Positions 43,377 through 60,773 of a stretch of DNA of 64,000 nucleotides are shown here, one piece after another. The position numbers and the translations under genes are program-made. Numbering within the stretch: the stretch's first letter is position 1; each line of letters begins with the position of its first letter. The stretch covers positions 3,930,001-3,994,000 of the forward strand of contig NZ_CP051428.1 of assembly GCF_012676905.1 (NCBI RefSeq), given 5' to 3'. The stretch is from Paenibacillus albicereus. GTDB lineage: Bacteria > Bacillota > Bacilli > Paenibacillales > Paenibacillaceae. The notes beneath the pieces were generated by a model. It saw only the letters and a list, made by a program, of their open reading frames with translations. It made no database searches and was not told where the DNA came from.

Positions 43377-43469
43377 GGCTGCCTCAGGGCGATCACCCGC
43401 GCCGGAGGCCGCCCCTTTTCGATTTCGCGGCCGAAGCCTCGATTGCCGGGGGCGGCCTCTTATGCCGGG

Positions 43470-44618
43470 TTACTGCGGCACGGCCATCCGCGCGCTCTCC
43501 AGCGTCTCTCTCACGCGGGCAGGCCACTTGCCGTAATCGCCGCCGTACCCATCGAGCAGGGCGTACGCCCAGCGGTCGATGCCGAAGGCGATGCAGCCCG
43601 ACTGCATCGGATTCGCCTCCGCGTCCAGCACCTCGAACGGCTTGCAGAGCGAGTCGCCCATATGGTTGAACGACGCGATGGAGAACGAGCCGCCGTCCTC
43701 GCCCGCCCGGGCGATGAGCTCGTACTTCATGTTCCCCATCAGCTGCTGCTGGCCTTTGCCGCTTTCCTCGGAGAAAAAGAAAGGGTCGCTCGCCGTCTCG
43801 ATCTTGCCCGCGAGCCCCAGCCTTTCGAACAGCGACCACGCCTCCTCCATGAACGCGCGGCGCTCCTCTTCGATGAAGGACGCCTCCCCGAACAGGACGA
43901 TCTCCCGCATGCTGAATTCTTGAAGCCGATGCTTGCCGACGCGCCAGGCGGCTTCGTGGCGGAAGCAAGTTCCGCGTGAAGTCAGTACGAGCGGCTCCTG
44001 CAACCGCGAGCCCGACAGCTCCGCGTAGCAATGGAAGCAGACCGCGGGCGAGAGCGCGTACGGGCTGAGGCGCGCCAGCCCGTTCAGATCGCCCGCCTCG
44101 CGGACCTTCTCCAGCTCCTCGAGCCGATGGGGGAACTCGGACACGAAATGGATGTTTTGCGGGAAGGTCTCGATATACCGACACTTGCGCAGCGTCTCGA
44201 CGGGAATCATCGAAGGGTAGCTGCGCAGCTGCGCCTGATGGCGCTGCGCCCACTCGACGAGCAGCCGGTCGATCTGCTCGGACAGCGTCACGGCCAGCCC
44301 CCGCTTCCAGGCGCCGTTCGGAGCGAACAGCTCGCCCGCCGTCTCCGGCGTGCCCGCCCGCGCGTCCTCGCGGGCTTCCGTTTCCCGGTACAGGCGCGAG
44401 CCGATGATGCGGCTGCTGCGTTCCTTTGCGATCAGGCGCTCCACGGCGTCGTCGATGGGTCCTTGGGCAGTGCCGGGCAGCAGCTCCACGATTATCGCTT
44501 GCGTCGTCTCGTCCAGCCGGCAGCCCGAGATGCCCTCGATGCTGTAGATGAGCTTCGCCAGCAGCGACTGCGCCTGCCGTTCGTTCAGAATGTTCGAAGT
44601 CGGGTAGGTTTTGATCAC
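43470..44618 (-). CDS. Amino acid:carrier-protein ligase (class II aaRS-like)
   Basis: 382 residues, seryl-tRNA-synthetase-like catalytic core without a tRNA-binding domain. Signatures are TCFRHEAAWRVGKHRLQEFS (motif 2 region) and SGCIAFGIDRWAYALL (motif 3). Candidate zinc ligands are C146 (RKCRYIETFP), E200 and C342, the pattern of the Bll0957-type ligases that activate Gly or Ala and load a stand-alone carrier protein. The start is a GTG at 44618 with AAAGGGGAG six bases upstream; the ATG-initiated frame from 44660 contains that site and overlaps the upstream gene. Last gene of the cluster. A GAGGCCGCCCC / GGGGCGGCCTC hairpin near 43405-43455 follows, without a T tract. Which amino acid and which carrier protein it uses is unknown. 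Confidence 0.83.
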   Translation of the reverse strand: MIKTYPTSNILNERQAQSLLAKLIYSIEGISGCRLDETTQAIIVELLPGTAQGPIDDAVERLIAKERSSRIIGSRLYRETEAREDARAGTPETAGELFAPNGAWKRGLAVTLSEQIDRLLVEWAQRHQAQLRSYPSMIPVETLRKCRYIETFPQNIHFVSEFPHRLEELEKVREAGDLNGLARLSPYALSPAVCFHCYAELSGSRLQEPLVLTSRGTCFRHEAAWRVGKHRLQEFSMREIVLFGEASFIEEERRAFMEEAWSLFERLGLAGKIETASDPFFFSEESGKGQQQLMGNMKYELIARAGEDGGSFSIASFNHMGDSLCKPFEVLDAEANPMQSGCIAFGIDRWAYALLDGYGGDYGKWPARVRETLESARMAVPQ

Positions 44619-44646
44619 GATTCGCTCCCCTTTCATTATGTTGGCG

Positions 44647-45513
44647 TCATCCGTGGGCATGGGCCGCCTCCCTGCCCGGACTGCTCCAGCCGGCCAGCCA
44701 GCGCCGCTCCTCCTCCAGCCGAGCGAACGGATGCTCGCCGAACCATTCGATCGCGATCGGATGCGGCGCAGCGTCTTGGTGCAGCCGATCGAGGACGGGC
44801 GTGTAGTCGATGGCCCCCTGCGCCAGCGCCGACATGCCGTCGCGCTTGCCGGAGGGAGAGAAGACGTTGGCCGGCTCGAACAGCCCGGCTTGCTCGGGAC
44901 GGGCTACGTTTTTGACGTGGAAATTGACGATCCACCGCTGCAAGGCCCGATACGCTTCGAGCGGGGCGGTGCCGGACTCCCATAGGTGCAGGAAGTCCAG
45001 ATTGATGCCGATATCGCCCCGCCCGGCATCGCGCAGCAAGCGGAGCGTCGCGTCCAGCGTATCGGCATAGGTGCGCGGGTGCGTCTCGACGACGAGCTGC
45101 GCGCCGGCCTCCGCGGCCATGCCGGCCAGCTGGCCGAGCCGGTCCACGCACAAGGCCCAGTCCCGCTCCGTGGCCGTATGACTCGGGCGGTCGCCCGCGA
45201 AGATGCGGATCTTGCGCGCGCGGAACGGCTGCGCCAGCTCGAGCAGGGCCGCCCATCGCTGCAATAGCTGCCGTGTCCGATCCTCCGGCGCGAGCAGGTC
45301 GACATAGTCGCTCATCATGGAGATGCCGAGTCCGCGCGCTTCCATCCTCTCCATCAGGCCGGGAAGCTCCTGCCGCCGTTCGCGCAGCAGCGACTTGGCA
45401 TGGACGCCCCATAGCTCGATGCCTTGGAATCCGGTCCGGTCCGCGAACTCGATCAGCTCGCCGAACGACACCAGCTCATGGCGGAACGAGATGGAGCAGA
45501 GACAAATATTCAT
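44647..45513 (-). CDS. asbF: 3-dehydroshikimate dehydratase (AsbF-like)
   Basis: 288 residues, TIM-barrel AP-endonuclease-2 family. The N-terminus (LCSISFRHELVSF, then GFQGIELWGVHAKSL) and the blocks INLDFLHLWESG, NFHVKN and FEPANVFSP follow B. anthracis AsbF closely by eye. Metal and catalytic residues have counterparts at E143, H145, D173, H175, H199 and E256. The reaction is dehydration of 3-dehydroshikimate to 3,4-dihydroxybenzoate, the catechol unit of petrobactin. The ATG at 45513 follows AAAGGTGGG. It lies between the AMP ligase and the aaRS-like ligase. A protocatechuate catabolic role is unlikely because no ring-cleavage genes are present. Confidence 0.88.
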   Translation of the reverse strand: MNICLCSISFRHELVSFGELIEFADRTGFQGIELWGVHAKSLLRERRQELPGLMERMEARGLGISMMSDYVDLLAPEDRTRQLLQRWAALLELAQPFRARKIRIFAGDRPSHTATERDWALCVDRLGQLAGMAAEAGAQLVVETHPRTYADTLDATLRLLRDAGRGDIGINLDFLHLWESGTAPLEAYRALQRWIVNFHVKNVARPEQAGLFEPANVFSPSGKRDGMSALAQGAIDYTPVLDRLHQDAAPHPIAIEWFGEHPFARLEEERRWLAGWSSPGREAAHAHG

Positions 45514-45544
45514 TCAAACCCACCTTTCGTCGGCTTCGCGCGCC

Positions 45545-46897
45545 CTAGCGGCCGGGCAGCTGCTCCTTCCGGATCTTCTTGTAGCGATCCGTATACAGCT
45601 CGCCTTGCCGGATCTCGATCTTGACGGGAATCTGGTACTCTTCCAGCTTTCCGCGACAGAAGCTTCGGATGCGGGCTTTGAGCTCGCTCGGCTCCAGCGG
45701 CTCCTGCACGTTGACGGCGGCCGCGACGATGCTTCCGAGCAGCGGGTTCGGCTCGCCTCTCACGGCCGCGTCCGCCACCTCGGGCATCTGGAGCAGGACG
45801 TCCTCCACTTCGACGGGGTACACCTTGCGGCCGCCGACGTTGATGACTTCCGACCTCCGCCCCAGGATGCGGATGTATCCGCCGTCCTCGAGCACCTCAT
45901 CCTGCGTGTCGAACCAGCCCTCTTCGTCGAACGGATTCGGCGCGTTCAAATACCCTCGCATCGCCGTGCCGGAGCGGATGTGCAGCACGCCGTCCACGAT
46001 GCGCGTCTCGATGCCCTCGCCGCCGATCCGCAGCCAGGGCGATCCGGAGGCGCGCGACTTGGCGCGCAGGATGCCGAGCTCGGACAGGCCGTACGTTTGC
46101 CGCAGCTGCGCCTCGGGGAAGGCCAGCCGCGCGGCGTTGAGCGTCGCGTCCGGCATGACCTCGGTGCCGTAGGTGATGATGCGGAGCGAGGACAGGTCGT
46201 AGTCGCGATGGACGCCGGACAGGAGCAGCAGGTTGAGGAAGCTCGGCGAGGCGGGGAGGAGCTCGATGCGGTGCCGCTCGATCAACGCGCAGATCGCGGG
46301 CGCGGTGCGGCTGTCCGGCGCGATGATCGTCCCTCCGTTGGCGAACGTATGGAACATCGTATTGATGCCGCCGATATGGTCGAACAGCAGGAACGTCAGC
46401 GTCCGCAGCGTGTCCCTCGGCGCCTTGTACCGTTCCAGGAAGGCGGCGAAATCGTGCAGGATCGCTTTGGGCCGGCCCGTCGTGCCCGACGTGAACAGGA
46501 CGAGGCCCGGCTTCTCCTCCTTGATGAAAGTATCCAGCAAGCCCGCGTGCCCGCTTCTCGCAAGCGTGCGGACCGCCGCTTCCGGGCCGCCGTCAAAGAC
46601 GATCGAGCGGTCGACCTGCGCGATCTCGGCCAGCTCGTCCCGCCTATGCCTCACGCTCGCCGACAAGGGCACGATCACATTGCGGTTCGCCAGCAGCGCC
46701 AGCATCGCGCCGCATGCGGAGGGCGAGTAATCGCCCTCCAGCGATACGACTTCGCCCGGCTGGATGCCGTGCTCTCGAATCCTGCCGGACCAGCTCCGGC
46801 AGCTCGCCAATAGGTCCGCATACGTGATCGAGCGCTCGCCGCGCACCATCGCCTGCCGATCCGCGTAGCCCGCCAGGGTCTGCAGCAGCCATTCCAT
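45545..46897 (-). CDS. Stand-alone AMP-forming acyl/aryl/aminoacyl ligase
   Basis: 450 residues, ANL adenylating enzyme. Core motifs: LVLFTSGTTGRPKAIL (A3), QTYGLSELG (A5), GWFDTQDEV (A7) and the C-terminal lysine region DRYKKIRKEQL (A10). No carrier, condensation or thioesterase domain is fused, so it should load a separate carrier protein, most simply the one encoded immediately upstream, with which the open frame overlaps. It is distinct from the AsbC-like ligase at 53682. The ATG at 46897 has GAGGAGG nine bases upstream. The acid substrate cannot be read from the sequence. Confidence 0.82.
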   Translation of the reverse strand: MEWLLQTLAGYADRQAMVRGERSITYADLLASCRSWSGRIREHGIQPGEVVSLEGDYSPSACGAMLALLANRNVIVPLSASVRHRRDELAEIAQVDRSIVFDGGPEAAVRTLARSGHAGLLDTFIKEEKPGLVLFTSGTTGRPKAILHDFAAFLERYKAPRDTLRTLTFLLFDHIGGINTMFHTFANGGTIIAPDSRTAPAICALIERHRIELLPASPSFLNLLLLSGVHRDYDLSSLRIITYGTEVMPDATLNAARLAFPEAQLRQTYGLSELGILRAKSRASGSPWLRIGGEGIETRIVDGVLHIRSGTAMRGYLNAPNPFDEEGWFDTQDEVLEDGGYIRILGRRSEVINVGGRKVYPVEVEDVLLQMPEVADAAVRGEPNPLLGSIVAAAVNVQEPLEPSELKARIRSFCRGKLEEYQIPVKIEIRQGELYTDRYKKIRKEQLPGR

Positions 46898-46914
46898 TGT
46901 CGCATGCCTCCTCA

Positions 46915-47208
46915 TCATCCGCCGCGCCCGGCAGGGCCTGCAGGCACTCCAGGGCTCGCGGCGACTTTGCTTGTCACATAGGCTTCCAGCAGCCGGAGCT
47001 CCCGCAAGAGCGACAGCCCGATCTCCTCCACGTCGATCGTGATGCCGAATTCGACTTCGAGATCCGCCAGCAGATGGACAATCGCGATCGAATCCAGCCC
47101 CAAGTCGTGAATCAGGTCGGTATCGGGGCCGATCTCCTCCCTCGCTGCTTTCACCGTCTCGTTGCGCAGGATCAAGTCCCGGATCCGGTCAAGCCATGGG
47201 CTCGGCAT
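46915..47208 (-). CDS. Acyl/aminoacyl carrier protein 1
   Basis: 97 residues, four-helix carrier protein. The phosphopantetheine serine is S40 in HDLGLDSIAIVHLL. The C-terminus (about 20 residues) is Gly/Pro/Ala-rich. The ATG at 47208 follows AGGAGGAGGGAC and overlaps the end of the BtrH-like gene. It lies just upstream of the AMP ligase, its most likely loading enzyme. No phosphopantetheinyl transferase is in the window. Confidence 0.85.
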   Translation of the reverse strand: MPSPWLDRIRDLILRNETVKAAREEIGPDTDLIHDLGLDSIAIVHLLADLEVEFGITIDVEEIGLSLLRELRLLEAYVTSKVAASPGVPAGPAGRGG

Positions 47209-48265
47209 AGGTCCCTCCTCCTGCGGCAGTCCGGTGCAGCCACTCCAAGAACCGGAGCTCCGCCTCCTTCACGGCTCCCGCGCGCTCCACGAGCGCAGGG
47301 AGCATTTCCGCCCCGCGCTCGCCGGCGCGCTCGTATTTAAGCAGAGCCAGATTGCACGCCGTCCAGGCGTCCGACACCGGCTGGAGCCGCAGCCGCCCCT
47401 CCTCGGCCTGCTGCTCGTCCATCTGCAGGAGCTCCCGGTACACCGTCCACGTCCGGGCCCGAAGCTGTCGGATCGACAGCATCGTAAGCGAATTCTGCCT
47501 GACCCACCGCGCTCGCAGAGCCGGCGTCCAGTTCACGGAATCGCGCGCATCCGAGACGAACAGGTCCCATGCCCGCGCGCCGATGCTCCGCTGCCGCAGC
47601 CGCTGGCGGATTCGATCCCATTTGTCCGGCTTGCCGTCCCCGCCTTGCTGCACCAGATCCCCGTCGTCCGGCGCCTGATACGCATGCAGGTTGCGCTCCG
47701 CGCCGGTTCGCAGGCAGTCGGCCACATCCGGCTCCGAATAGGGAGCCTCCGGCTCCTTCAGCACGAAGAAAGGAATGTCATCGCGGTCCGCTCGAACGAG
47801 GCTCGCTTGACGCAATCGGTCGGGGGACAGCTCGACGACGACGCCGACGACGGGGTCCGCGACGAGCAGCACGCCCTTCTCCGCGTCCCATCCCCGCACG
47901 AGAATCGCATGCCGGAACCCGCTCGACTCCATGCCCAGAAACGAGCGCGGAAAGTACTCCAGCAGGGACGCCTGGCTCAAGCAGATGACCGATCGGCCCG
48001 CCTTCACGACCGACAGCAGCCGCTCCACGGAAGCTTCCTCGAACGACAAGCCGATGCCGTACAAGTACCGCAGCGGGATATACGCCGCGTTCTTGCTCGA
48101 CAGCAGCGTCCGGCGCTCATAGCTCAGGTTCCAGTAATTCAACAGCACCTTGCGGTAATCGCGTCCCGTGCTCTTCAGATAAGTCAGCACGCAGGAGGTC
48201 AAGCATTCCATATAAGCCAACTGAACCTGGTCCTCCGGCTTCAAATCCGCCAGCTTGCCGATCAT
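47189..48265 (-). CDS. BtrH/C39-like acyltransferase candidate
   Basis: 358 residues. Residues about 10-165 have the layout of the BtrH N-terminal / C39 peptidase-like fold: a cysteine pair near the N-terminus (YMECLTSCVLTYL, C21 and C25), a histidine in GFRHAILVRGWD (H119) and an aspartate in LLVADPV (D137). BtrH of butirosin biosynthesis uses this fold to move an acyl group from a carrier protein to an amine, which fits the flanking carrier protein. The C-terminal half (about 200-358) is helical and unassigned. The ATG at 48265 is directly after the ABC gene stop. Assignment is by pattern and context. Confidence 0.6.
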   Translation of the reverse strand: MIGKLADLKPEDQVQLAYMECLTSCVLTYLKSTGRDYRKVLLNYWNLSYERRTLLSSKNAAYIPLRYLYGIGLSFEEASVERLLSVVKAGRSVICLSQASLLEYFPRSFLGMESSGFRHAILVRGWDAEKGVLLVADPVVGVVVELSPDRLRQASLVRADRDDIPFFVLKEPEAPYSEPDVADCLRTGAERNLHAYQAPDDGDLVQQGGDGKPDKWDRIRQRLRQRSIGARAWDLFVSDARDSVNWTPALRARWVRQNSLTMLSIRQLRARTWTVYRELLQMDEQQAEEGRLRLQPVSDAWTACNLALLKYERAGERGAEMLPALVERAGAVKEAELRFLEWLHRTAAGGGTYAEPMA

Positions 48266-50050
48266 TCACATCGCCTCCAATCGTTCGCCGCCCGTTCGTC
48301 CGTCCCGTTCGTGCCGCTCCTCGCGCTTCGCCAGCTCGACGTAGAGGGCGCAGCGGTCCATGAGCTCGTCGTGGGTGCCGCTGTCGACCACCCGGCCTTG
48401 CTCCATGACGTAGATGACGTCCGCCGCGCGGATCGTCTCCATCCGGTGGGTGGAGATCAGCGTCGTCTTGCCGCGCATGACCTGCTGGATCGTGCTCAGC
48501 ACCTGCTCCTCGGTATGGCGGTCCAAGGAAGAGGTCGGCTCGTCCAAAATCAAGAGATCGGGCTGCTTGATGATGGCCCTGGCGATGGCCATGCGCTGCC
48601 GCTGTCCGCCGGACAGCTGGAAGCCTTGGTTGTCCAGCTGCGTATGGATGCCTGCGGGGAGCGCATCCACGTAAGCTTGCAGGCCGACCTCGCGCAGCGC
48701 CCGGCATACCTCCTCCTCCGAAGCGTCCCGCTTGCCCAGGGCCACGTTCTCGAACAGCGTGCCGCGGAACAGGAACGTCTCCTGCGAGACGAAGCTGACC
48801 GATCGGGAGAGGGCGCTTCGCGGCCAGTCGCGGATCGGCCTCTCCCCGATGCGGAGCATGCCGGACGCAACCGGCATGAAGCCTTGCACCGCCTTGAAGA
48901 ATGTCGACTTGCCCGACCCGCTCCGCCCGACGAACGCCGCGACCTGACCTTCCCGCACGTCCACGCTCACCTGGCGCAGAATCGTCGTTCCTTCGTAAGC
49001 GACGACGAGATCCTTGCAGGTTAGATCAAGCGGCCGCCGTGCGGGGAATGGCTCCAGCCCGACGTCGTCTCCGGCCTCCGCGGCGGATTCGGCCGGCGTG
49101 GAGAGGAACGCTTCGATCCTCCCCATCGCGACTTCGCTGCCGATCAGATCGCCGATCAGGTAATTCATGCCCTGAATCGGATTCAAGACGGATTGCAGAT
49201 ACGGGACGGCCGCGACGAGCAAGCCGACGGAGAAGGCGCCGGACAGCACTTGGCCGCTGCCGAATCCGTAAAGAAGCACGGTCGCGAGCGCGACGGCCAG
49301 CGTCCCGGTCTGGCCCGACAGCTGCCGGAACAGCCCCTCCCGGACGCTGAGCTTGACGAGGCCCTCGTACATGGCTTCATTGCGCTCCTCCTCCCATCCC
49401 TCCAACCCGTACGCGCGTATTTCCCGCGAGCCTTGAATGCTCTCGTACAAGGAGGAGCCGATCTGCTCGTTGTGCGAGCGGAGTCCGCCGACGGCGGCGC
49501 GGATCGGCCTCCGGTAGAGCCGGGGGAGGCTCATCATGATCGGAATGCCGGCGACGGCCATCAGGCCCAGACGCCAGTCGATGGTGAACAGGAACGCCAG
49601 CGCGACCAGCATCTGGAGCCATAGCGAGATCAGCTCGATCATGATGACGTTGATGAACCGGGCCGTCGTCGTCGTATCCATGCCCAAGAGCGCCATATAC
49701 TTGCCCGCGCCATGCTTCTCGATCTCGGGCAGCGGAATTCGCCGGATGTGGCGCAAAATCGTCGTCCGCATATCGAGCGTGTGCCGGGCTTCGAGAAATC
49801 GAAAAATGGTAAACCCGATGACCGTGCCCAGGGCGGCGACGGCCGCCAAGCCGAGCGAGGCTCCCAAAATCGGGACGACGAGCCGCGCATTCCGGCCGAT
49901 GAGCACCTCGTCGATGAACCGCGAGACCAGGTAAGGCTGGCACAGATTCAGCACCAGGCTGGTCAAGGTCAAGAGAAGGCCGACGCTGGCCGTTCGCCAG
50001 CGCGGGCGGATGCGCCGGATCAAGCGGACGTACATGCGGATGCTCTTCAT
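48266..50050 (-). CDS. ABC exporter, fused membrane and ATPase domains
   Basis: 594 residues. Six transmembrane helices in about residues 15-310, then an ATPase domain with Walker A GRSGSGKST, signature LSGGQRQRM, Walker B LLILDEPTSSLD and switch STHRMETI. A type IV (MsbA/LmrA-like) homodimeric half-transporter. No peptidase C39 domain is fused, although C39-like proteins are encoded on either side. It probably exports the product of the surrounding cluster. The ATG at 50050 follows GGGGGGAG and overlaps the stop of the AsbE-like gene (ATGA). Confidence 0.9.
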   Translation of the reverse strand: MKSIRMYVRLIRRIRPRWRTASVGLLLTLTSLVLNLCQPYLVSRFIDEVLIGRNARLVVPILGASLGLAAVAALGTVIGFTIFRFLEARHTLDMRTTILRHIRRIPLPEIEKHGAGKYMALLGMDTTTTARFINVIMIELISLWLQMLVALAFLFTIDWRLGLMAVAGIPIMMSLPRLYRRPIRAAVGGLRSHNEQIGSSLYESIQGSREIRAYGLEGWEEERNEAMYEGLVKLSVREGLFRQLSGQTGTLAVALATVLLYGFGSGQVLSGAFSVGLLVAAVPYLQSVLNPIQGMNYLIGDLIGSEVAMGRIEAFLSTPAESAAEAGDDVGLEPFPARRPLDLTCKDLVVAYEGTTILRQVSVDVREGQVAAFVGRSGSGKSTFFKAVQGFMPVASGMLRIGERPIRDWPRSALSRSVSFVSQETFLFRGTLFENVALGKRDASEEEVCRALREVGLQAYVDALPAGIHTQLDNQGFQLSGGQRQRMAIARAIIKQPDLLILDEPTSSLDRHTEEQVLSTIQQVMRGKTTLISTHRMETIRAADVIYVMEQGRVVDSGTHDELMDRCALYVELAKREERHERDGRTGGERLEAM

Positions 50051-51012
50051 CCGGAACTCCCCCCGTGCCCGACGGCTTGTCCGGCGGCGGAGGACCACGA
50101 GGCCAGCGCGCCCAGCAGCTCCTCCCGGATGGAGGCCTCCCGTTCATGCAGGCGGGCAAGCTTCTCCGACAGGGCCGGCAGATCCGCGGCTCGCTTCAGC
50201 AGGCCGATGCGCGCGATCGTCAGCAGAAAGCTCTCCCAGCCTTGGATGAGCGCCGCCACGTCGGCGGCCAGTGCGGCACAGGCTTCCTCGTCGCGGCCGG
50301 CAAGGTAGCGGAACACGCGAGCGTACCCGCCGAAGCGCTTGGCGATGACGCCGGTCTGCTGCAACGATTCGAACAGGGTCGGCGGCGCATGGCCGCCGCT
50401 GCGCTCGACCGCTTCGCGCACGAACCGCTCCACGTCTCCGAGGAGCGGATTGATTCCGGGACGGATGTCCTCGCGGAACAGCTCTGCCGCCGTCTCCGGA
50501 GCGGCCTCGTGCATGGCGGCCGAATCGAGCCATACGCCGGAGAGAAAGCCCTCCCGGAGCGTCTCGCGCGAGACGCCGCCCGACCACGAGAAGTACGGAT
50601 CGATGATCCGCCATTCCCCGCCGGCCGGCGCCTCGAACACGACGATATGCGGAAGATGCCTCGACCCGAACCGAGGCGCGTGGGGAAAGTGGTACAGGTC
50701 GACGGTCAGCACGAATGCGCCGTCGGAGCGATCATCCAGAAGCCCGAGCAGCTTCGCGAAATTCGCGCTCCGCTTGGCCCCGTAGTCGCACCAGTGCACG
50801 ACCGCGGCGCCATAGAGGCGGCGCATCCTCTCCTGCCAGCGCTTGGGGTCGATCTCCTCGCCGAAATAGGCGATGCCGCGCTCGCTGACGTCGTAGCTGG
50901 CCTCCCACGCCCCGCTGTACAGCGGACGGCTGTCGAAGCCGGCCCGCTCGATGATCCAGGCGTAGCAGTCCAGCATGCAATGAATCGGCTCCCGCTTCGT
51001 CACCGTAGTCAC
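50047..51012 (-). CDS. asbE: AsbE-like 3,4-dihydroxybenzoyl transferase (DUF6005)
   Basis: 321 residues. The N-terminus (IHCMLDCYAWIIERAGFDSR, then PLYSGAWEASYDVSE) and the block RHLPHIVVFE ending IIDPYFSW match petrobactin AsbE by eye. AsbE transfers 3,4-dihydroxybenzoate from the carrier AsbD to a polyamine. Candidate catalytic residues in C39-like order are C12 or C16, H122 and D138, the same pattern as in the BtrH-like protein two genes away. The start is a GTG at 51012 overlapping the carrier-protein stop (GTGA). The amine acceptor here is unknown; no spermidine genes are nearby. Confidence 0.75.
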   Translation of the reverse strand: MTTVTKREPIHCMLDCYAWIIERAGFDSRPLYSGAWEASYDVSERGIAYFGEEIDPKRWQERMRRLYGAAVVHWCDYGAKRSANFAKLLGLLDDRSDGAFVLTVDLYHFPHAPRFGSRHLPHIVVFEAPAGGEWRIIDPYFSWSGGVSRETLREGFLSGVWLDSAAMHEAAPETAAELFREDIRPGINPLLGDVERFVREAVERSGGHAPPTLFESLQQTGVIAKRFGGYARVFRYLAGRDEEACAALAADVAALIQGWESFLLTIARIGLLKRAADLPALSEKLARLHEREASIREELLGALASWSSAAGQAVGHGGSSG

Positions 51013-51278: not shown

Positions 51279-51279
51279 C

Positions 51280-53413: not shown

Positions 53414-53414
53414 G

Positions 53415-53678
53415 CTACACCGCCGTCCGCCGGAACGACTCGATCAGCTCCGCCAGCGAGCCGATCGTGAGGAAATGCTCCGGATCGACGCCTTCGTCCG
53501 GCAGGCTCACCTGGAAAACCTCTTCGATGTACACCATCAGTTGCAGCACCATGATCGAATCGATCTGCAGATCGTCGTACAGGCGCATCGACTCGTCCAG
53601 CGCCTCGGGCGCCTCCAGCTCCAGGTTCTCCGTAATCAACGTGCGAAGCTCGTTCAGAATCCACTTGCGGTCGTCCAT
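53415..53678 (-). CDS. asbD: Aryl carrier protein 3 (AsbD-like)
   Basis: 87 residues. The phosphopantetheine serine is S41 in YDDLQIDSIMVLQLMVYIE. That segment, and DEGVDPEHFLTIGSL, resemble petrobactin AsbD, the carrier of 3,4-dihydroxybenzoate. The ATG at 53678 follows AAAAGGAGAG. It sits directly after the AsbC-like ligase gene, the same order as in the petrobactin operon. Confidence 0.82.
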   Translation of the reverse strand: MDDRKWILNELRTLITENLELEAPEALDESMRLYDDLQIDSIMVLQLMVYIEEVFQVSLPDEGVDPEHFLTIGSLAELIESFRRTAV

Positions 53679-53681
53679 TTC

Positions 53682-54935
53682 TCATCTCTCCTTTTCCGCG
53701 ATAGAAGTCCGGCTGATCTTGCCCGCCGGCGTACGGGGAATCCCGTCCGTCATGTCGATGACGCTCGGCACCTTGTAGGCCGGGAGATGGCGGATGCACC
53801 ACTCCCGCACGTCTCCCGCCTCGATCGCGGGCTCTGCGACGACCATCGCCCGGACGGCATCGCCGGATACGCGATGCGCGGTCCGCAGGACGAGGGATTC
53901 CTTGATGCCCGGCATGCGCAGGAGGACCGACTCCACCTCCGAGGGAATCACCTTCAGCCCCGATACGTTGATCAAATCGTCCAGACGGCCCAGCACATGC
54001 AGCCGGCCGTCCTGCGGATTCATGGCGCCGAGATCCCGCGTGCGGATGTGAATGCCGCCGATCGCGGCCACGATTTCCCCTTGGCTGGCCGACGGCTCGC
54101 CCGGCTCCTCTGGAGCGAGCGTAACCTCGACATGCGCGAGCGGATGGCCGACGTCCGAGGCGCATGCGGGATCGCGCGCCACGGAGATGCAGCCGGCCTC
54201 CGTGCAGCCGTACTGCTGCCACACTTCGTCCGCGCGTGCCTTCATCCGCTCCAGCAGCGGGTCGGAGGGCGGCGACCCCGAGATGACCATCCGATGGAAG
54301 CGGTCCTCCTCGCTCGCCATCGCATCGAGGATGCCGAACAGAAACGGCACGGCATACACCAGGGGACGCGCCCGGCTCCGGATCGCCTGCAAGGCGGCCT
54401 TCGGATTGCGCTGCGGAACGATGGCCGGCTCCTCCCCGCGCGCCATGGAAGCGAGCGTGCCGGCGATCAGGCCGTACGAATGGGATACCGGCACGAGCAG
54501 GACCGGATCGAGACGCGCCTCCCTGCGAAATAGCCGATTGTAATGCTCGATCTCCGTCTCGACCTGCTCCCAGCCGCGCTCGATGAGAGCGGGCTGACGC
54601 GAGGTGCCGGAGCTGTACTGAAGGATGGACGGCCGATGGGCCGCAGCTCCCCCGAGCTTCAGCGTATCCTCCCATCCGCCGTGGACCAGGCAGGAGCAGT
54701 CCGCCTTGCGGGCCGCATCGACAGCCGACGATAGCGGCGTCGACTCATGCATCAGCAGCACCGATCCTCCCCGCTCGCGCATGTACAGCACGATCGCGAC
54801 CAGATCGAACGCATGGCCGACGCATACCGCATATCGCTTCCCTTCGGGATGGCGATACGCTTCAAGCCGTTCCATCTCGGCATGCCGGGCATGGAACGCA
54901 TGCTCATCGAATCGTTCCTGATGGACGGTAAGCAT
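53682..54935 (-). CDS. asbC: 3,4-dihydroxybenzoate:carrier-protein ligase (AsbC-like)
   Basis: 417 residues, short ANL adenylating enzyme. The N-terminus (MLTVHQERFDEHAF, then YAVCVGHAFDLVAIVLYMRE) and the block SILQYSSGTSRQPALIERGW are AsbC-like; note SSGTS rather than the usual SSGTTG. A5 is QQYGCTEAG and A10 is GIPRTPAGKISRTSI. It should adenylate 3,4-dihydroxybenzoate and load carrier protein 3, encoded three bases downstream. The ATG at 54935 follows GAGAGGTG. Divergent from the glycosyltransferase at 55035 across an AT-rich promoter region. Confidence 0.82.
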   Translation of the reverse strand: MLTVHQERFDEHAFHARHAEMERLEAYRHPEGKRYAVCVGHAFDLVAIVLYMRERGGSVLLMHESTPLSSAVDAARKADCSCLVHGGWEDTLKLGGAAAHRPSILQYSSGTSRQPALIERGWEQVETEIEHYNRLFRREARLDPVLLVPVSHSYGLIAGTLASMARGEEPAIVPQRNPKAALQAIRSRARPLVYAVPFLFGILDAMASEEDRFHRMVISGSPPSDPLLERMKARADEVWQQYGCTEAGCISVARDPACASDVGHPLAHVEVTLAPEEPGEPSASQGEIVAAIGGIHIRTRDLGAMNPQDGRLHVLGRLDDLINVSGLKVIPSEVESVLLRMPGIKESLVLRTAHRVSGDAVRAMVVAEPAIEAGDVREWCIRHLPAYKVPSVIDMTDGIPRTPAGKISRTSIAEKER

Positions 54936-55034
54936 GAATCACCTCTCCACAACGTAATCCATTATGCTATAATTTATAAATATAGGTATATTTGTATTAT
55001 TTCTACATTTCATTTTCATAAAAGGAGGTCGCGC
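54936..55034. promoter_or_regulatory. AT-rich divergent promoter region of the catecholate cluster
   Basis: 99 bases between divergent asbC-like and glycosyltransferase starts, far richer in A+T than its surroundings. A perfect TATAAT lies at 54967-54972 on the plus strand, and several TATA-type hexamers lie on the minus strand. No clear Fur box was recognised. Confidence 0.55.
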
Positions 55035-56231
55035 ATGGCAAAAGTCCTGTTCATCAACGGTCCCGCCAGCGGCCACGTCCATCCGACGCTCGGCCTCGTC
55101 GAGGAGCTCGTCGCCGCAGGAGAACAAGTCGTCTACCTGTGCAGCGAGCCGTTCCGCCGCCTCGTCGAGCGGCCCGGCGTCACCTTCATCGCCTACGAGG
55201 ACTTCCTGAGCCGGGAGGACCCGTTCGAGACGAGGCATTTCCTCTCGCTCGTCATCAAGATCCTCGGCGCGTACGACGTCATCCTGCCCTGCGTGCGGCA
55301 GGCCGCGGCCGATCACTCGTTCGACTATCTCGTACACGATTCCATGTACGGCTGCGGCCTCGTCGTCGCGGACCTGCTGGGCCTCCCTCATATCGCGACG
55401 TGCACGTCGTTGATCCGAGCCGAACGGCTGAGCGGGAGTGCCGGCAGCGCCGCTCCGATGAAGGACAACCTGCAGCTCGTCAAGCAGTACGCCGCCCTGG
55501 CCGCCCGCATCCGGGCCGACCACGGGATCAGACGCAAGCTGGAGATCGATCGCGTGTTCTTCAACGAGGGGATGCTGAACCTGGTGTTTACGTCCGCCCT
55601 CTTCCAGCCGGACCACGAGCGGCTGGGCAGCTCGTACAAATTCGTCGGCGCGAGCTTGGCCCAGCGGCGCGGCATTCAAGGGGAGCTGCCGCCCGGCGTC
55701 GGCCGCTCCGGCCGCAGGCTGGTGTACATCTCCATGGGCACGATGTTCAACGACGTCGCCGAGCTGTACATGCTGCTGTTCGAGGCGCTCGCGTCGCTGG
55801 ACGCCGACGTGCTCCTGGCCGCCGGCTCGCGCGTCGACCTCGGCGAGCTGCGCGGCATCCCCGGCAACTTCACCGTAGCCGCCCGGATGCCGCAGCTGGA
55901 GATTTTGCGGCATGCGGACCTGTTCATCACCCACGGGGGCATGAACAGCGTGAACGAAGCGCTGGTCCACGGCGTGCCGCTGCTCGTCATCCCGATGGCG
56001 GCCGATCAGCCGATCAACGGCGACCGGGTTCAAGCGCTCAGCGCGGGCCTCCGCCTGGATCGGGAGACGCTGACGAGCGCCCGGCTGCGCGAGGCGGCCG
56101 ACCGGCTGCTGGCCGCGGACGGATACCGGAGGAACAGCGCCGCGATCGGAGAAAGCCTGCGCGCCGCCGGCGGCCACCGGACGGCGATGGCCCATGTCCG
56201 GGCGTTCAAAGAGCAGCATCGCTTGCGGTAA
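55035..56231 (+). CDS. MGT-type (GT1) glycosyltransferase
   Basis: 398 residues, GT-B fold glycosyltransferase of the macrolide/UGT type. The N-terminus VLFINGPASGHVHPTLGLVE holds the acceptor-site histidine. The C-terminal nucleotide-sugar signature is ITHGGMNSVNEALVHGVPLL followed by DQPINGDRV. It would glycosylate a small molecule. It is the only plus-strand gene of the cluster and faces the asbC-like gene across a shared promoter region. The ATG at 55035 follows AAAAGGAGG; the long frame from 54747 is rejected. Confidence 0.87.
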   Translation: MAKVLFINGPASGHVHPTLGLVEELVAAGEQVVYLCSEPFRRLVERPGVTFIAYEDFLSREDPFETRHFLSLVIKILGAYDVILPCVRQAAADHSFDYLVHDSMYGCGLVVADLLGLPHIATCTSLIRAERLSGSAGSAAPMKDNLQLVKQYAALAARIRADHGIRRKLEIDRVFFNEGMLNLVFTSALFQPDHERLGSSYKFVGASLAQRRGIQGELPPGVGRSGRRLVYISMGTMFNDVAELYMLLFEALASLDADVLLAAGSRVDLGELRGIPGNFTVAARMPQLEILRHADLFITHGGMNSVNEALVHGVPLLVIPMAADQPINGDRVQALSAGLRLDRETLTSARLREAADRLLAADGYRRNSAAIGESLRAAGGHRTAMAHVRAFKEQHRLR

Positions 56232-56261
56232 GGATGGCTGGTGGAGAAAGAGGCGCGGCGC

Positions 56262-57488
56262 TTAAAGCCGCGCTTCTTCCTGCTGCGTCAGCGTTTGCGT
56301 ACCTTGCGCCGCATCCCGCCGCAGTGCCGTCAAGCAGCGGACGAAGCGCTCCGGCCGGATCTGCGCCTGGAACGCGCGAGCCGCCTGCTTGGACTGCTCC
56401 GCGATCCGCTCATACTGCTCGCGGTCTCCCGTCAGCTTCGCCAGGGCGGCAATCCAGGGACGCATGTCCTGCTCTGGAAGGACCGGAACGGGAATCAGCC
56501 GTTCATCCACCCGGGTCTCGTAGGCTTCGATCGGATGGACCGGAATGAGGTAGTCGACTCCGAGCTTCGCCTCGGACGTGCCGCCGACATCGCTGGCGAT
56601 GACGGGGATGCCCCGGAGCATCGCATCGACGATGACCGCCCCGAAGGCTTCTCCCCACAAAGAAGGCACGATCAGCACCTTGGTCGTCTTCATGATGTCG
56701 TCGATGTCGTCGGCTCGCGGCAGCAGGGTCATGTTCGGCAGCGACCTCAACGCCTCGAGGTCGCTGCTCGTCGTCGCCCAGGTCGGAACGGCCGCGAAGG
56801 GCAGCTCCGGGAACCGCCTCGCCAGGTCGAGGAAGATCGGCAAGCCTTTGATGCCCGACGGGTTAATCATCGTCACGTACCCGCCGTCAAAGTTGCGGTA
56901 GTCCTGGAACGGCCCCCATCCGTGCACCGGGAACGGGACGGCGGTCGACTCGAGATCGCTCCATCGGCGCAAGTACGCCTGGACGTAAGCGCTGGTGGCG
57001 ATGATCCCGGCCGTCTGCCTCAGCAGCTCCAAATGGCCGGGATTCTGCGCGTAGCATTCCGGGCCGAAGGGGAGCGCCACTTGGCTGTGCGCGATCTCGA
57101 CCACTTGGCCGGGAGCGGCGAGCAAGGCGCTCTCCAGGACGGCCGGCACGCGATCCTCGGTCACCAGCACCCACTCCGGCCGGAACGCTTCCATCCGCTC
57201 GCGCACGAATTCGCGCAGCGCGCCTGCATCCCGGAGCGCATGGATCTCGACCCCAGCCGACCGATAGACGTCGCAGGCCTCGTCGGAGCGGACGCGCTCC
57301 ACTTCTCCGCGGGCAAGCTTGTCCGCGAACAACGCTTCGTCGCTCAGCCCGTTGTCGTTCGGCGTGGCGGTGAGGACGAGGCATTCATGCCCGATGCGCG
57401 CGAGGCCCTCCATCAGGTTGCGGTTCGCCTTGCAGGCGCCGCTGTACGAGATGAAGTAACCGAGCGCTTGAATCAGCGCGATCCTCAT
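56262..57488 (-). CDS. GT4-type glycosyltransferase
   Basis: 408 residues, GT-B fold, glycosyl transferase group 1. The nucleotide-sugar site is in LIVPSLWGEAFGAVIVDAML followed by GIPVIASDVGG, with the E-x7-E arrangement. The N-terminal domain opens MRIALIQALGYFISYSGACK. Second glycosyltransferase of the cluster, so the product may be a disaccharide or be decorated twice. The ATG at 57488 overlaps the stop of the gmhA-like gene (ATGA) and follows GGGAGG. The donor could be the heptose made by the neighbouring genes. Confidence 0.85.
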   Translation of the reverse strand: MRIALIQALGYFISYSGACKANRNLMEGLARIGHECLVLTATPNDNGLSDEALFADKLARGEVERVRSDEACDVYRSAGVEIHALRDAGALREFVRERMEAFRPEWVLVTEDRVPAVLESALLAAPGQVVEIAHSQVALPFGPECYAQNPGHLELLRQTAGIIATSAYVQAYLRRWSDLESTAVPFPVHGWGPFQDYRNFDGGYVTMINPSGIKGLPIFLDLARRFPELPFAAVPTWATTSSDLEALRSLPNMTLLPRADDIDDIMKTTKVLIVPSLWGEAFGAVIVDAMLRGIPVIASDVGGTSEAKLGVDYLIPVHPIEAYETRVDERLIPVPVLPEQDMRPWIAALAKLTGDREQYERIAEQSKQAARAFQAQIRPERFVRCLTALRRDAAQGTQTLTQQEEARL

Positions 57489-58093
57489 GCGATCCCTCCC
57501 TTGCCGACCGCCAGGCGGCGATCCTCCTCCACGCGTTCCATCAGCTGGCATACCTCCAGCGCCATGCCGTGGCAGAGCAACGAATGGCTGTCTTCGATAA
57601 CCTGCATGCTGTCGCTGAACGTGATGATGGGGTAGTCCGTCATCCGGCTGACCGCGCCGCCTTGGAACCCGCTCAGAGAGGCGGTCGCGGCGCCTGCCTC
57701 GGCGGCATAGCCGAGCGCTTTCACCACATTGCCTGAATTTCCGCTCGCCGAGATGGCGATGACCATGTCCCGAGGCTCCAGGAACGGGATGAGCTGATGG
57801 ATGAAGATGTCTTCATAATGCGAATCGTTCGCCCAAGCCGTCAGGATGGCCGCGTTGTCGGTCAGGGAGACCGCTTTGACCCGGGGGCGACCGCCCGCGA
57901 TCGTCAGCTTGCTCAGGTCGCAGGCAAAATGGGATGCCGTCGAGGCGCTCCCGCCGTTGCCCATGATGTAGATCGTGCCGCGCTGCTTCCAGACGCCCAC
58001 GATCGCGCCCGCAAGCCGGTGAACCCGTTCCGCATTTACAGAGTCAAGCGAGCTGGACACCGCATGAAAATAGGACTCGATAAAGTAGCTCAA
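57485..58093 (-). CDS. gmhA: Phosphoheptose isomerase-like SIS protein (GmhA)
   Basis: 202 residues, single SIS domain. NGGSASTASHFACDLSK, DNAAILTAWANDSHYEDIF and SASGNSGNVVKAL are GmhA signatures, and IEDSHSLLCHGMA carries the C-terminal histidines. It should convert sedoheptulose 7-phosphate to D-glycero-D-manno-heptose 7-phosphate. The start is a TTG at 58093 with AAGGAGG seven bases upstream and one base after the stop of the gmhB-like gene. Next to gmhB and hddA homologues, it completes three of the four steps to a nucleotide-activated heptose. Confidence 0.85.
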   Translation of the reverse strand: MSYFIESYFHAVSSSLDSVNAERVHRLAGAIVGVWKQRGTIYIMGNGGSASTASHFACDLSKLTIAGGRPRVKAVSLTDNAAILTAWANDSHYEDIFIHQLIPFLEPRDMVIAISASGNSGNVVKALGYAAEAGAATASLSGFQGGAVSRMTDYPIITFSDSMQVIEDSHSLLCHGMALEVCQLMERVEEDRRLAVGKGGIA

Positions 58094-58094
58094 T

Positions 58095-58685
58095 TCAATT
58101 CCTCCTTCTCGAAAACCAACTGGTCTGCGCAAGCGATTCGACGGCTTCCATCACCCCCTCGCAATAGCGGTCGGCCGCTTGCAGCCGCCTCGTCTCCGCT
58201 TCCTGAGCGTGGCCTCGGCCGCTCAGAACGAGAATTCCGGACGCTCCGGCAGCCTTGGCCGCCAGCATGTCCGACAGGGCATCGCCGATGAAAAAGCTGG
58301 CCGACAGGTCGATCTCGTGCTCCTCGGCGGCTCGCAGCAGCATGCCGGGCCGAGGCTTCCGGCACGCGCAGCCGGTTTCCGGCCGATGCGGGCACACATA
58401 GATGCCGTCTACGACCGCTTGCCGGCTCGCCAGCTCCCGCCTCATCCGGTCATGGATGCCGTCGATGGCCGACCGGCTCGCGATCCCTTTGCCGATGCAG
58501 GCCTGATTCGTGACGAGAATCGCCTTGCGCTCCAGCCGGTTGAGCAGCGCGATCGCGTCGATCGCTCCGGGCAGCCACCGGAACGCATGCCAGCCGGTGA
58601 CGTAGCCGCCTGGAACGTTCTCGTTGAGGACGCCGTCCCGATCCAGGAACACGGCCCCACGGCGGCCGGCGCTCAATCCAGGCAT
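58095..58685 (-). CDS. gmhB: Heptose bisphosphate phosphatase-like HAD protein (GmhB)
   Basis: 196 residues, HAD phosphatase. Nucleophile motif FLDRDGVLNEN (D15), VTNQACIGKG, zinc motif CPHRPETGCACRKPRPGM and FIGDALSDMLAAKAAG. The CxH...CxC zinc loop is typical of GmhB, which removes the 7-phosphate from heptose 1,7-bisphosphate. The start is uncertain: ATG at 58685 overlaps the end of the kinase gene by 13 bases and has only a weak GGAAC upstream, so translational coupling is likely. The open frame to 58907 is antisense-like sequence inside the kinase gene and is rejected. Confidence 0.83.
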   Translation of the reverse strand: MPGLSAGRRGAVFLDRDGVLNENVPGGYVTGWHAFRWLPGAIDAIALLNRLERKAILVTNQACIGKGIASRSAIDGIHDRMRRELASRQAVVDGIYVCPHRPETGCACRKPRPGMLLRAAEEHEIDLSASFFIGDALSDMLAAKAAGASGILVLSGRGHAQEAETRRLQAADRYCEGVMEAVESLAQTSWFSRRRN

Positions 58686-59647
58686 GCGGCGGCGCGCGTT
58701 CCGAGCCGATCGAACCGGACGTCCAGCGCCGGAAGCCCGATCTTCTCCCGCAAGGCGGCATGATGCCGCTCCTCGGCGTGCAGCAGCAGGAACCCGCCTC
58801 CCCCAGCCCCGGCGATCTTGCCTCCCGTCGCTCCGTTTCGGAGCGCTTGTCCGTACCACTCGTCGATGGCCGGCGTCGTGATTCCGTCGGCCAGCCGCTT
58901 CTTCCATTCCCAGCCCTCATGCAGGATCGCGCCGAGCGTCTCGCCGCCCGTGCCGTCCTCCAACGCCCGCCTCATCGTCTCGCACTGAGCCTTGATCCGC
59001 ATCCAGTACTCCATGTTTCTCGCGGCGTCGTCCGTCTGCCTGCGCAGTATCGCCGACGCCGACCGGGTGATGCCCGTGTAGAAGAGAAGGAGGCTGCGCT
59101 GCAAGCCCTCCAGCCGTTCGGCGGCCATGCGGATCGGCTCCTCGTCGACCGCCCCGTCCCGGTGAAACGCATAATGCCGCAATCCGCCCAACGCGGCGGC
59201 GTATTGATCCTGCTTGCCGATCGGAGCCTGCAGCACGTCGATCTCGATCTCGCACGCTTGCTCGGCCAGCCGGCGCTGGCTGACGGCTCGTCCCTGATAG
59301 CGATGGCAGGCGTTCAGCAGCCCGACCGTCAAGGCGCTCGACGAGCCGAGGCCAGTGCCGGCCGACGGGATATCCGAGAAAATGGCGATGTCGACGCCGC
59401 CGCGGATGCCGGTCGCCTCCAGCACGGCCCGGACGAGATCGTGGCGGATGTCGCCGACGCGCTCGACCTCTTCGACCGCGTCCGCAGCGATCCGGATGCG
59501 GCCGTCGAACCGCTTATGGAGCGCGACATACACGTACTTGTCGATCGCAGCGCTGATGACCGCTCCGCCGTGAACGCCATAAAAAGCGCGAATATCCGTC
59601 CCGCCCCCGGCAAAGCTGATGCGCAGCGGCGTTTTGCTGATTAGCAT
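58673..59647 (-). CDS. hddA: GHMP sugar kinase, heptose 7-phosphate 1-kinase-like (HddA)
   Basis: 324 residues, GHMP kinase. MLISKTPLRISFAGGGTDIR is the substrate-side motif, GTGLGSSSALTVGLLNACHR the phosphate loop and KIAGAGGGGFLLL motif 3. This branch (HddA type) phosphorylates D-glycero-alpha-D-manno-heptose 7-phosphate at C1; related enzymes act on fucose. GmhA and GmhB neighbours favour the heptose reading. The nucleotidyltransferase (HddC) that would finish GDP-heptose is not in the window. The ATG at 59647 starts the conserved N-terminus; AAGGAG lies about 18 bases upstream. Confidence 0.85.
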   Translation of the reverse strand: MLISKTPLRISFAGGGTDIRAFYGVHGGAVISAAIDKYVYVALHKRFDGRIRIAADAVEEVERVGDIRHDLVRAVLEATGIRGGVDIAIFSDIPSAGTGLGSSSALTVGLLNACHRYQGRAVSQRRLAEQACEIEIDVLQAPIGKQDQYAAALGGLRHYAFHRDGAVDEEPIRMAAERLEGLQRSLLLFYTGITRSASAILRRQTDDAARNMEYWMRIKAQCETMRRALEDGTGGETLGAILHEGWEWKKRLADGITTPAIDEWYGQALRNGATGGKIAGAGGGGFLLLHAEERHHAALREKIGLPALDVRFDRLGTRAAACLD

Positions 59648-59687
59648 AGGTCCGCGATCCGCTCCTTTCTTGATCGACGCCGCCGGT

Positions 59688-60773
59688 CTATACCGATGCG
59701 GCCGCCCATTCGGCAAGCTCGAGCTGAATGGGTCTCCACGCTTCTCTCTCGCGGTCCGCCATCATCCTCAGCGCGGCCGCCGCATGCTCCAGCACCCGGT
59801 TATTCCCGGAGATGCGGTACTTCATGGCGACGTTGCGCAGCTTCAACGACTGCTCCTCGATCTCTTTCAGCCGATCCAGATGGAGCGCAGCGTTCGGATA
59901 AGCGCCGCTGTCGCCCAAATACTGCACGCGCAAGCACATGATCCGCTTGTGCTCGGCCAGCAGGTGGAACGAGCGCACGTCGCAGGCCACGTCGCTTTGG
60001 CTCTGCACGAGCTCGACATGCCGGATCAGCATCGCATAGATGTCCATGCCGAAATGGTCCCGCGACGCGTTTTCAAAGGCGGCGTAGGCGGCGGAGGTGT
60101 TTCTGGCGAGCAGATAATCCTCCATCAGACGCGCGATGTGGCCGATATCCAGCAGGTAGGGCCGCTTGGCATGAAAGACGGAGCGCGCGCCAAAGCGGAG
60201 CATCTCGATCCCGCTCAAATGATTGTTGAGGTCGGTGCTGGCCGCATGCTCGTAGTCGATCCGGCCGTCGTTGCGCTCGTCCACGCTGATGTAGGCCTGC
60301 TCAAGCTCGGCGTAGGGAATTTCCCGGAACTCGTATTTCCCCCCCTCGAAGAAGTCGGCGGCGTGGACGACCTCTCGGACCGAATCATAGCCAAAAAGAA
60401 AAATCTCGTGGAAGCGGTGGTAGCGTCGATAATAGTAGGGGTAGGCCTGGATGTAGTAGCTGTTCACCGTCGCTTGGACATACCGTCCGTCGTCGATGCA
60501 GCTTTGGACGAAGGAAAGGAAGGAAGGGAACCATCGGCCAAGCGTAGCTCGGCTCAGCTGCTCGTAGTCCACGACGGGACAGACCCGCTGGACATTGTCC
60601 GGATAGATCAGCAGATCCAGCGCATACGGCTTGCGGCTGCACTTCAGCTGGATATGGTTGCTGTAGAACCAAGGATAGAATTCCTCATGCATCGACAGCA
60701 TGGCCATCAAGTTGGTCGGTTGGGGATAGGTCGTCACAAAGGGGTAGCGGATGGGCAGCAGACGTTCGGCCAT
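59688..60773 (-). CDS. BtrH/C39-like protein lacking the catalytic cysteine
   Basis: 361 residues, no signal peptide. Residues about 60-145 resemble the BtrH/C39-like fold: YVQATVNSYYIQAYPYYYRR, then HRFHEIFLFGYD (H119 or H122) and AADFFEGGKYEF (D140). No cysteine occupies the N-terminal active-site position (the equivalent region reads YPQPTNLMAML), so it may be a non-catalytic partner or may work differently. The C-terminal 150 residues are helical. The ATG at 60773 follows AGGAGGAGG. First minus-strand gene of the heptose part of the cluster. Family assignment is by pattern only. Confidence 0.5.
   Translation of the reverse strand: MAERLLPIRYPFVTTYPQPTNLMAMLSMHEEFYPWFYSNHIQLKCSRKPYALDLLIYPDNVQRVCPVVDYEQLSRATLGRWFPSFLSFVQSCIDDGRYVQATVNSYYIQAYPYYYRRYHRFHEIFLFGYDSVREVVHAADFFEGGKYEFREIPYAELEQAYISVDERNDGRIDYEHAASTDLNNHLSGIEMLRFGARSVFHAKRPYLLDIGHIARLMEDYLLARNTSAAYAAFENASRDHFGMDIYAMLIRHVELVQSQSDVACDVRSFHLLAEHKRIMCLRVQYLGDSGAYPNAALHLDRLKEIEEQSLKLRNVAMKYRISGNNRVLEHAAAALRMMADREREAWRPIQLELAEWAAASV

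Follow-up and report, generated by a model that had tools for sequence, protein, structure and literature searches.

The clusters for petrobactin (asbABCDEF), rhodopetrobactin and methylolanthanin share with the island described here homologues of AsbC, AsbD, AsbE and AsbF and the inferred route, on which 3-dehydroshikimate would become a 3,4-dihydroxybenzoyl group on a carrier and this group would be passed to an amine. Another related system is the side chain of butirosin (BtrH, BtrI and BtrJ), in which a carrier is charged by a stand-alone ligase before a papain-like protein transfers its acyl group to the amine of a sugar. Further systems to be compared are the Bll0957-type amino acid:[carrier protein] ligases and the D-glycero-D-manno-heptose pathway (gmhA, hddA, gmhB and hddC). 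This paper describes an island of 17,564 bp (43376..60939) in a stretch of 64,000 nucleotides from Paenibacillus albicereus (this whole stretch is called the window), located between hemQ and the permease gene of a sugar ABC transporter, which in operation would resemble the catechol relay of petrobactin coupled to a relay of the butirosin kind.

Compared with the petrobactin type, the island is without nonribosomal peptide synthetase (NRPS)-independent siderophore (NIS) synthetases and without a Fur box, its AsbC and AsbE lie on separate branches, and it adds an aminoacyl ligase, extra carriers, BtrH-like proteins, sugar genes and glycosyltransferases. Since both NIS enzymes and a Fur box were looked for and neither was found, the island is not a petrobactin cluster. 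Unlike the butirosin system, it has BtrH-like proteins below the Pfam cut-off of BtrH_N (29.7 bits; 17.4 for G5 and 18.3 for G18, genes being numbered as in Table 1) and an added supply of catechol, and no 2-deoxystreptamine synthase appeared in the family scans of the island. Its aminoacyl ligase G1 resembles the Bll0957-type ligases in the core alignment (residues 122-387), but the N-terminal part before this core exceeds that of the solved relative by about 60 residues, the score is below the NCBIfam equivalog cut-off and the context is that of a catechol and an amino sugar. Three of the four enzymes of the D,D-heptose pathway adjoin one another together with a GT4 glycosyltransferase, whereas the nucleotidyltransferase is missing and all three are below their equivalog cut-offs.

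The cluster is real, conserved and, as far as the literature was searched, undescribed; the kinds of enzymes are known, and what is surprising is the combination and the missing Fur box. No description of such a cluster was found in the open-access literature (MIBiG being outside this search), in agreement with an earlier note on this DNA, made by a model from the letters alone, which knew of no described pathway with this gene set. With slightly more confidence than doubt, we read the island as a natural-product pathway without NRPS or NIS synthetases, in which three acyl relays would act on a glycosylated amine and whose product would be a secreted bioactive glycoconjugate and not an iron-regulated siderophore. 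The glycosylated, aminoacylated 3,4-catecholate which the note had proposed as the product is upheld, as a proposal. Somewhat more tentatively, such clusters in Paenibacillus, Cohnella and their order may constitute an undescribed class of pathways, in which the AsbC-F relay is combined with exchangeable acyl relays on carriers (variants with an aminoacyl ligase, with an AMP ligase or fed by a decarboxylase) on glycosylated amine cores to give non-siderophore 3,4-catechol glycoconjugates.

The limits of the island are given by a sister species of the same genus (genome G004), in which the site is empty, with 21 bp in place of the 17,564. The alignment of the two has 93% identity up to 43375, where the homology stops, and 92% from 60940 onward, where it restarts. 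The left border lies just past a terminator-like hairpin of hemQ, and in the sister species hemQ adjoins the sugar-transport genes. Eighteen genes, against 17 in the earlier note, lie within 43470-60773; all are open on translation, some starts within the longest reading frame having been picked by eye, and 17 are on the minus strand, only G13 being on the plus strand. Twelve genes form a first run from G12 (53682-54935) to G1 (43470-44660), overlapping or separated by at most 31 bases, and a second run extends from G18 (59688-60773) to G14 (56262-57488) with gaps of at most 40 bases. G13 (55035-56231) is divergent from the asbC gene G12, the two having a common gap of 99 bases (54936-55034). 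A scan of 43000-61200 for promoters and terminators was no better than shuffled sequences, so it is the gene spacing that carries the operon view. The gap between asbC and the MGT gene is AT-rich within an island of 65% guanine + cytosine (G + C) and holds or borders all three promoter-like matches, a count not above chance. A mobile element was considered and rejected, as the borders have no common word of 9 or more bases and family scans of the 18 genes gave no integrase or transposase. A chance neighbourhood was also rejected, because the gene set recurs in other genera in similar order and the site is clean and empty in the sister species.

The earlier note had claimed homologues of AsbC, AsbD, AsbE and AsbF in one region, and all four are there. 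The AsbF and AsbE assignments are clear from their sequences: the best solved match of G2 is AsbF itself (3dx5), the next having an expectation value (E) of only 4.3e-6, and G7 scores far above the cut-off of DUF6005 (Table 1), a family which is equated with AsbE in passages of PMC11317620. In AsbF, E143, D173, H176, H199, K201 and E256 (numbering of the first row) are invariant in 13 of 13 rows, including the petrobactin AsbF of the same genome; we take these residues to be the metal and substrate site. AsbC and AsbD did not pass the profile searches in full, with 426 bits against a cut-off of 513 and 87 against 100, scores such as divergent members would give. The motifs H[SA][FY]G[LF] and QYG[CS][TS]E.G are common to the AsbC of the clusters and of petrobactin (21/21 rows), and since they are partly general motifs of AMP ligases they carry little weight for the substrate. 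3,4-Dihydroxybenzoate is nevertheless the likely substrate of G12, because AsbC, AsbD and AsbF co-occur in the clusters with one clear exception. Likewise, the amino acid:carrier ligase, the second AMP ligase, the two more carriers, the amino-sugar pair, the heptose genes, the two glycosyltransferases and the exporter of the note were all found, and its single BtrH-like protein has a companion, the pair at 47189-48265 and 59688-60773 matching BtrH_N weakly.

The set is unusual, as the note had it, and yet it belongs to a recurrent type of cluster. Searching with G5, called BtrHa here, gave relatives in 25 of 392 genomes of the order (which we take to be Paenibacillales), its own genome included; among eight genomes of the genus, only that of the window has the gene, and among 299 genomes drawn from the class three matched, namely its own, one of the same family (G084) and a weak one elsewhere. 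Among named genomes, scanning turned up seven loci, in Paenibacillus sp. N3.4, P. oryzisoli, Cohnella mopanensis, C. cholangitidis, C. endophytica, C. zeiphila and a Paenibacillaceae metagenome-assembled genome. Eighteen clusters from the order, covering part of the 25 genomes, were tabulated, the window (42301-61000) being one, on stretches of 13 to 39 kb each. In these, asbC and asbD are always present (18/18), the exporter nearly so (17/18) and asbA and asbB never (0/18), and a glycosyltransferase occurs in 17 (6 MGT, 11 GT4b). The Gfo and DegT genes are in 14 of 18, the aminoacyl ligase in 7 and the heptose set in 2, and the gene order, sugar genes included, is largely kept across the clusters of other genera. 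In seven of the more distant clusters the place of G3 is taken by a different AMP ligase together with a short protein of AMP-binding type (28.5 bits in Pfam, below the cut-off of 29.9); five clusters have a gene for an ornithine/diaminopimelate-type decarboxylase, all of them without the aminoacyl ligase, and three an ATP-grasp gene. The nearest cluster by gene content, in genome G133, has all genes but one at 28-64% identity, including the heptose genes and, in addition, a nucleotidyltransferase, and a methyltransferase gene is found nearby where the aminoacyl ligase is missing. In the 392 genomes, DUF6005 was found in 52 and NIS synthetases in 130. AsbE of the cluster type, sorted by eye (rows of at most 323 bits), occurs in 23 genomes, all among the 25 with BtrHa; left out were a fragment in G266 on a contig with a NIS gene, a fragment with stops in G029 and a match below the cut-off in G260. 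Of the 24 other BtrHa-bearing genomes, 16 have no NIS gene and 8 have a NIS synthetase; this check also took in G040 for its heptose genes (it has NIS), and in G215, only 78% complete, absences from the clusters G215a and G215b are weak since both are on short contigs.

The same genome carries a complete asbABCDEF operon (locus L003) about 530 kb from the island, and its only two NIS genes are those of this operon, so that the note was right in finding no AsbA/AsbB-type synthetase in the region. With this operon elsewhere and all 18 island genes open, a decayed or broken petrobactin locus was rejected. The presence of the operon also favours the explanation that the island holds spare catechol-loading enzymes for petrobactin among unrelated neighbours. 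Identities between island and operon are 36% for AsbC, 43% for AsbD, 27% for AsbE and 43% for AsbF. Against the spare-enzyme explanation, in maximum-likelihood trees, unrooted and with some long branches, petrobactin AsbE (5 sequences) parts from cluster AsbE (14) with a support of 100/99 and petrobactin AsbC (5) from cluster AsbC (16) with 98/94. AsbF (5 petrobactin, 15 cluster) splits with only 67/50 and thus by itself does not part the clusters from petrobactin. In view of this, of the 16 BtrHa-bearing genomes without any NIS gene and of the largely conserved gene order, the spare-enzyme explanation is already largely refuted and hardly credible. The AsbC-F homologues would also fit a siderophore, or another metallophore, that is a glycosylated 3,4-catecholate with a sugar scaffold in place of citrate, its importers lying elsewhere in the genome, and cluster products with 3,4-dihydroxybenzoate are metallophores in the parts of PMC13251462 and PMC11317620 that deal with them. 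Fur boxes argue otherwise. Counted with one consensus at no more than 2 mismatches, they occur in 10 of 10 NIS loci and in a single one of the 18 clusters (p 8e-7 by Fisher's test, the genomes being related and not independent samples), and the island has none even at 3 mismatches or fewer. The NIS loci were the genome's own and one from each of nine genomes with NIS, a second NIS locus of G090 being left out; each has at least one Fur box outside the mechanically listed open reading frames of 150 amino acids or more, and the own petrobactin locus has one with 1 mismatch 73 bases before asbA. The only one of the 18 with Fur boxes is G133, where the first of two lies beyond the cluster and the other within gmhA. 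Nor can the contrast be put down to base composition, since the island and the own petrobactin locus are equal in G + C (65-66%). An iron-controlled siderophore is therefore less likely, and this is the main ground for leaving that explanation. Furthermore, family scans of the 18 genes gave no siderophore binding protein or importer, and a petrobactin operon with its Fur box is already present in the genome, so that the siderophore explanation is judged unlikely and the even choice of the note, "siderophore or antibiotic", is even no longer.

In a further explanation the envelope is decorated, the catechol and the amino acid being ligated to an aminosugar-heptose glycan of the surface. D-glycero-D-manno-Heptose occurs in the S-layer glycans of Gram-positive bacteria, and the best NCBIfam score of the exporter G6, below the cut-off, is that of the lipid-A exporter MsbA. 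In addition, systems of a seryl-tRNA synthetase (SerRS)-like enzyme and an acyl carrier protein (ACP) provide a predicted precedent in passages of PMC2922099. On the other hand, family scans of the island's 18 genes brought up no lipid-linked sugar transferase or polymerase, and the heptose set is missing in 16 of the 18 clusters, which makes decoration of the envelope improbable.

In the secreted-glycoconjugate pathway which we favour, three ligases, three carriers and three BtrH/AsbE-type proteins would be arranged in three relays. We infer the substrates, the acceptor, the biological role and, from adjacency only, the pairing within the relays. In the first, AsbF (G2) would supply 3,4-dihydroxybenzoate, which would pass over AsbC (G12) and AsbD (G11) to AsbE (G7); passages of PMC6836290 describe the transfer of 3,4-dihydroxybenzoyl groups by AsbE from AsbD onto spermidine. 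In the second, a second acid would pass from G3 over G4 to G5, and the pairs G12/G11 and G3/G4 adjoin in the window; at E 1e-30, phmmer matched G3 to no solved relative. In the third, the aminoacyl ligase G1 would load an amino acid on the carrier G8, with G18 possibly as the transferase. G1 aligns to the amino acid:[carrier protein] ligase 3mey (E 1.7e-27) with identical residues at SPA.C, CFR.E and GC.AFG.DR, and its class II core has the Cys, Glu and Cys positions, presumably those of the bound metal. Relatives of G1 adjoin a G8-type carrier and a gene of the G18 type (BtrHb) in L079 and L084, the loci of C. endophytica and G411, which suggests the G1-G8-G18 relay. The acceptor would most likely be an amino sugar or an aminocyclitol, formed by oxidation with G10 and transamination with G9, which look like a ketone-forming and an amine-forming pair; among solved structures, G9 is best matched by sugar and inositol aminotransferases. 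A SerRS-like/ACP system has been proposed to aminoacylate an amino sugar in another system (PMC2922099). A heptose from G15-G17 may then be attached by G14 and another sugar by G13, and the product may be exported via G6.

As to the transferases, Glu-Cys, His and Asp-Pro are invariant in 15 of 15 rows of the BtrHa family, that is, the papain-like Cys-His-Asp set is present. AsbE and BtrHa are related by hhalign (97.8%, E 1.2e-12), their Cys, His and Asp residues lining up, and the AsbE profile matches solved proteins with a BtrH-N domain (E 9e-5); DUF6005 and BtrH_N are both classified as papain-like in passages of PMC10318531. Comparisons of BtrHb with BtrHa and AsbE were weak (47% and 66%), so no shared mechanism is claimed.

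Several points weigh against the pathway as drawn. The clusters were collected by BtrHa, which is consequently in 18 of 18 by construction, and the BtrHa profile search matched no solved BtrH protein. AsbF is in 17 of 18 clusters, being missing in C. endophytica and weakly matched in G090, and asbE is missing from 4 (14/18). AsbC, AsbD, G1 and G15-G17 all score below NCBIfam equivalog cut-offs. In G133 asbE and the GT4 gene are each split into two reading frames, so this cluster may be decaying or misread, and G133 has G8 but no aminoacyl ligase, so the pairing of G1 and G8 is not strict. In G18, His122 and Asp140 are invariant and no Cys is invariant among 8 rows, and BtrHb is matched at 19-28% identity in 8 other clusters and lacking in 8 of the 18, which makes its label as a transferase weak. 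No heptose-1-phosphate nucleotidyltransferase, the enzyme expected to complete the activated heptose, was found in the island, and the search of the genome gave only matches of 24-30%. Finally, a Fur box lies within 200 bases of the NIS start in 3 of 10 NIS loci and in the other 7 the nearest is 1.5-4 kb upstream, so that Fur control of the NIS genes there is inferred, and iron control by other means is compatible with a missing Fur box.

Table 1. Genes of the island, with family assignments from Pfam and NCBIfam scans
Gene	Predicted product	Position	Strand	Matches
G1	SerRS-like class II aminoacyl:carrier-protein ligase, putatively loading carrier G8	43470..44660	-	3mey amino acid:[ACP] ligase E 1.7e-27; NF005479 142 bits, cut-off 357
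G2	AsbF, 3-dehydroshikimate dehydratase giving 3,4-dihydroxybenzoate	44647..45513	-	3dx5 AsbF E 1.5e-57
G3	Second AMP-forming ligase	45545..46918	-	PF00501 E 3.2e-38; 55-64% identity in 8 other clusters
G4	Carrier protein adjoining G3	46915..47208	-	PF00550 E 5.5e-11
G5	BtrHa, papain-like (C39-like) acyltransferase candidate	47189..48265	-	BtrH_N E 0.0056; related to AsbE by hhalign
G6	ABC exporter, membrane and ATPase domains fused	48266..50056	-	PF00664, PF00005; in 17/18 clusters
G7	AsbE (DUF6005), candidate 3,4-dihydroxybenzoyl transferase	50047..51012	-	PF19468 152.5 bits, cut-off 25
G8	Carrier protein, putative partner of G1	51009..51278	-	PF00550 E 9.2e-9
G9	DegT/StrS-type sugar aminotransferase	51280..52416	-	PF01041 E 1.2e-106; nearest solved relatives 7b0d, 2oga, QdtB
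G10	Gfo/Idh/MocA oxidoreductase, paired with G9	52385..53413	-	PF01408 E 2.5e-25
G11	AsbD carrier protein	53415..53678	-	NF005798 AsbD 87.1 bits, cut-off 100
G12	AsbC AMP ligase, probably for 3,4-dihydroxybenzoate	53682..54935	-	NF006167 426 bits, cut-off 513; 36% identity to own petrobactin AsbC
G13	MGT-family glycosyltransferase	55035..56231	+	TIGR01426 308.8 bits, cut-off 260
G14	GT4 glycosyltransferase, candidate heptosyltransferase	56262..57488	-	PF13692 E 2.1e-11; accompanies heptose genes in G133, G040
G15	GmhA-like sedoheptulose-7-phosphate isomerase	57485..58132	-	TIGR00441 E 3.7e-26, 92 bits, below cut-off
G16	GmhB-like heptose bisphosphatase	58095..58685	-	NF006506 161.8 bits, cut-off 178
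G17	HddA-like D-glycero-D-manno-heptose-7-phosphate kinase	58673..59647	-	3k85 E 2.2e-42; NF049969 149 bits, cut-off 600
G18	BtrHb, BtrH-like protein without conserved Cys	59688..60773	-	PF14399 E 0.0029, below cut-off

The search rule for petrobactin-like clusters in the part of PMC11317620 concerned requires IucA/IucC genes, and such a rule would pass over the present clusters. They are a sign that Paenibacillus and Cohnella secrete compounds which have so far gone unseen, and they offer loci with natural swaps of single relays for testing the choice of carrier and amine by BtrH/AsbE-type transferases. Moreover, they offer a direct test of roles of 3,4-dihydroxybenzoate beyond iron capture, the 3,4-catechol being a mark of metallophores in passages of PMC13251462 and PMC11317620. 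If the root of the unrooted trees were placed within the clusters, petrobactin would become one branch of a larger family of 3,4-catechol acyl transfer. The cluster of G070 (L083), without the Gfo/DegT pair, branches beside petrobactin in the AsbC and AsbE trees and is a possible link between the two types.

The isomerase, kinase and phosphatase relatives of the D,D-heptose pathway in the island are accompanied by a nucleotidyltransferase in G133 and, by eye, in G040. In the latter (L035 15694-16806, L039 12700-16770), a cassette of GT4, gmhA, gmhB and hddA with the nucleotidyltransferase-like gene and a 52% relative of G18 flank very long NRPS-like genes, which were recognized by eye with no family search. 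As the heptose genes, G14 and G18 are thus found together there also, the heptose cassette appears to move as a unit.

Cluster genes (asbE, GT4, asbC, aminoacyl ligase and DegT) split into two reading frames were seen at L038 3911-4874 and L034 11965-13175 (both G133), L076 14627-15777, L084 5072-6239 and L092 6052-7166, and these are either real damage or sequencing errors. Beside the clusters L108 (7139-14489, G090) and L111 (G322) there are ketoacyl-synthase-like genes, and G090 also has a 30% relative of AsbF and a FabZ-like gene, all judged by eye with no family search; these neighbours are possibly a further variant of acyl supply. The BtrHb family is large, being matched in 63 of 147 relatives, with a maximum of 19 matches for G098 (some genes being listed as two pieces). 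In Cohnella mopanensis, a second AsbE-type gene (L091 14752-15735, 29% identical to G7) directly follows the aminoacyl ligase, at a place where P. oryzisoli has a gene of the BtrHb type.

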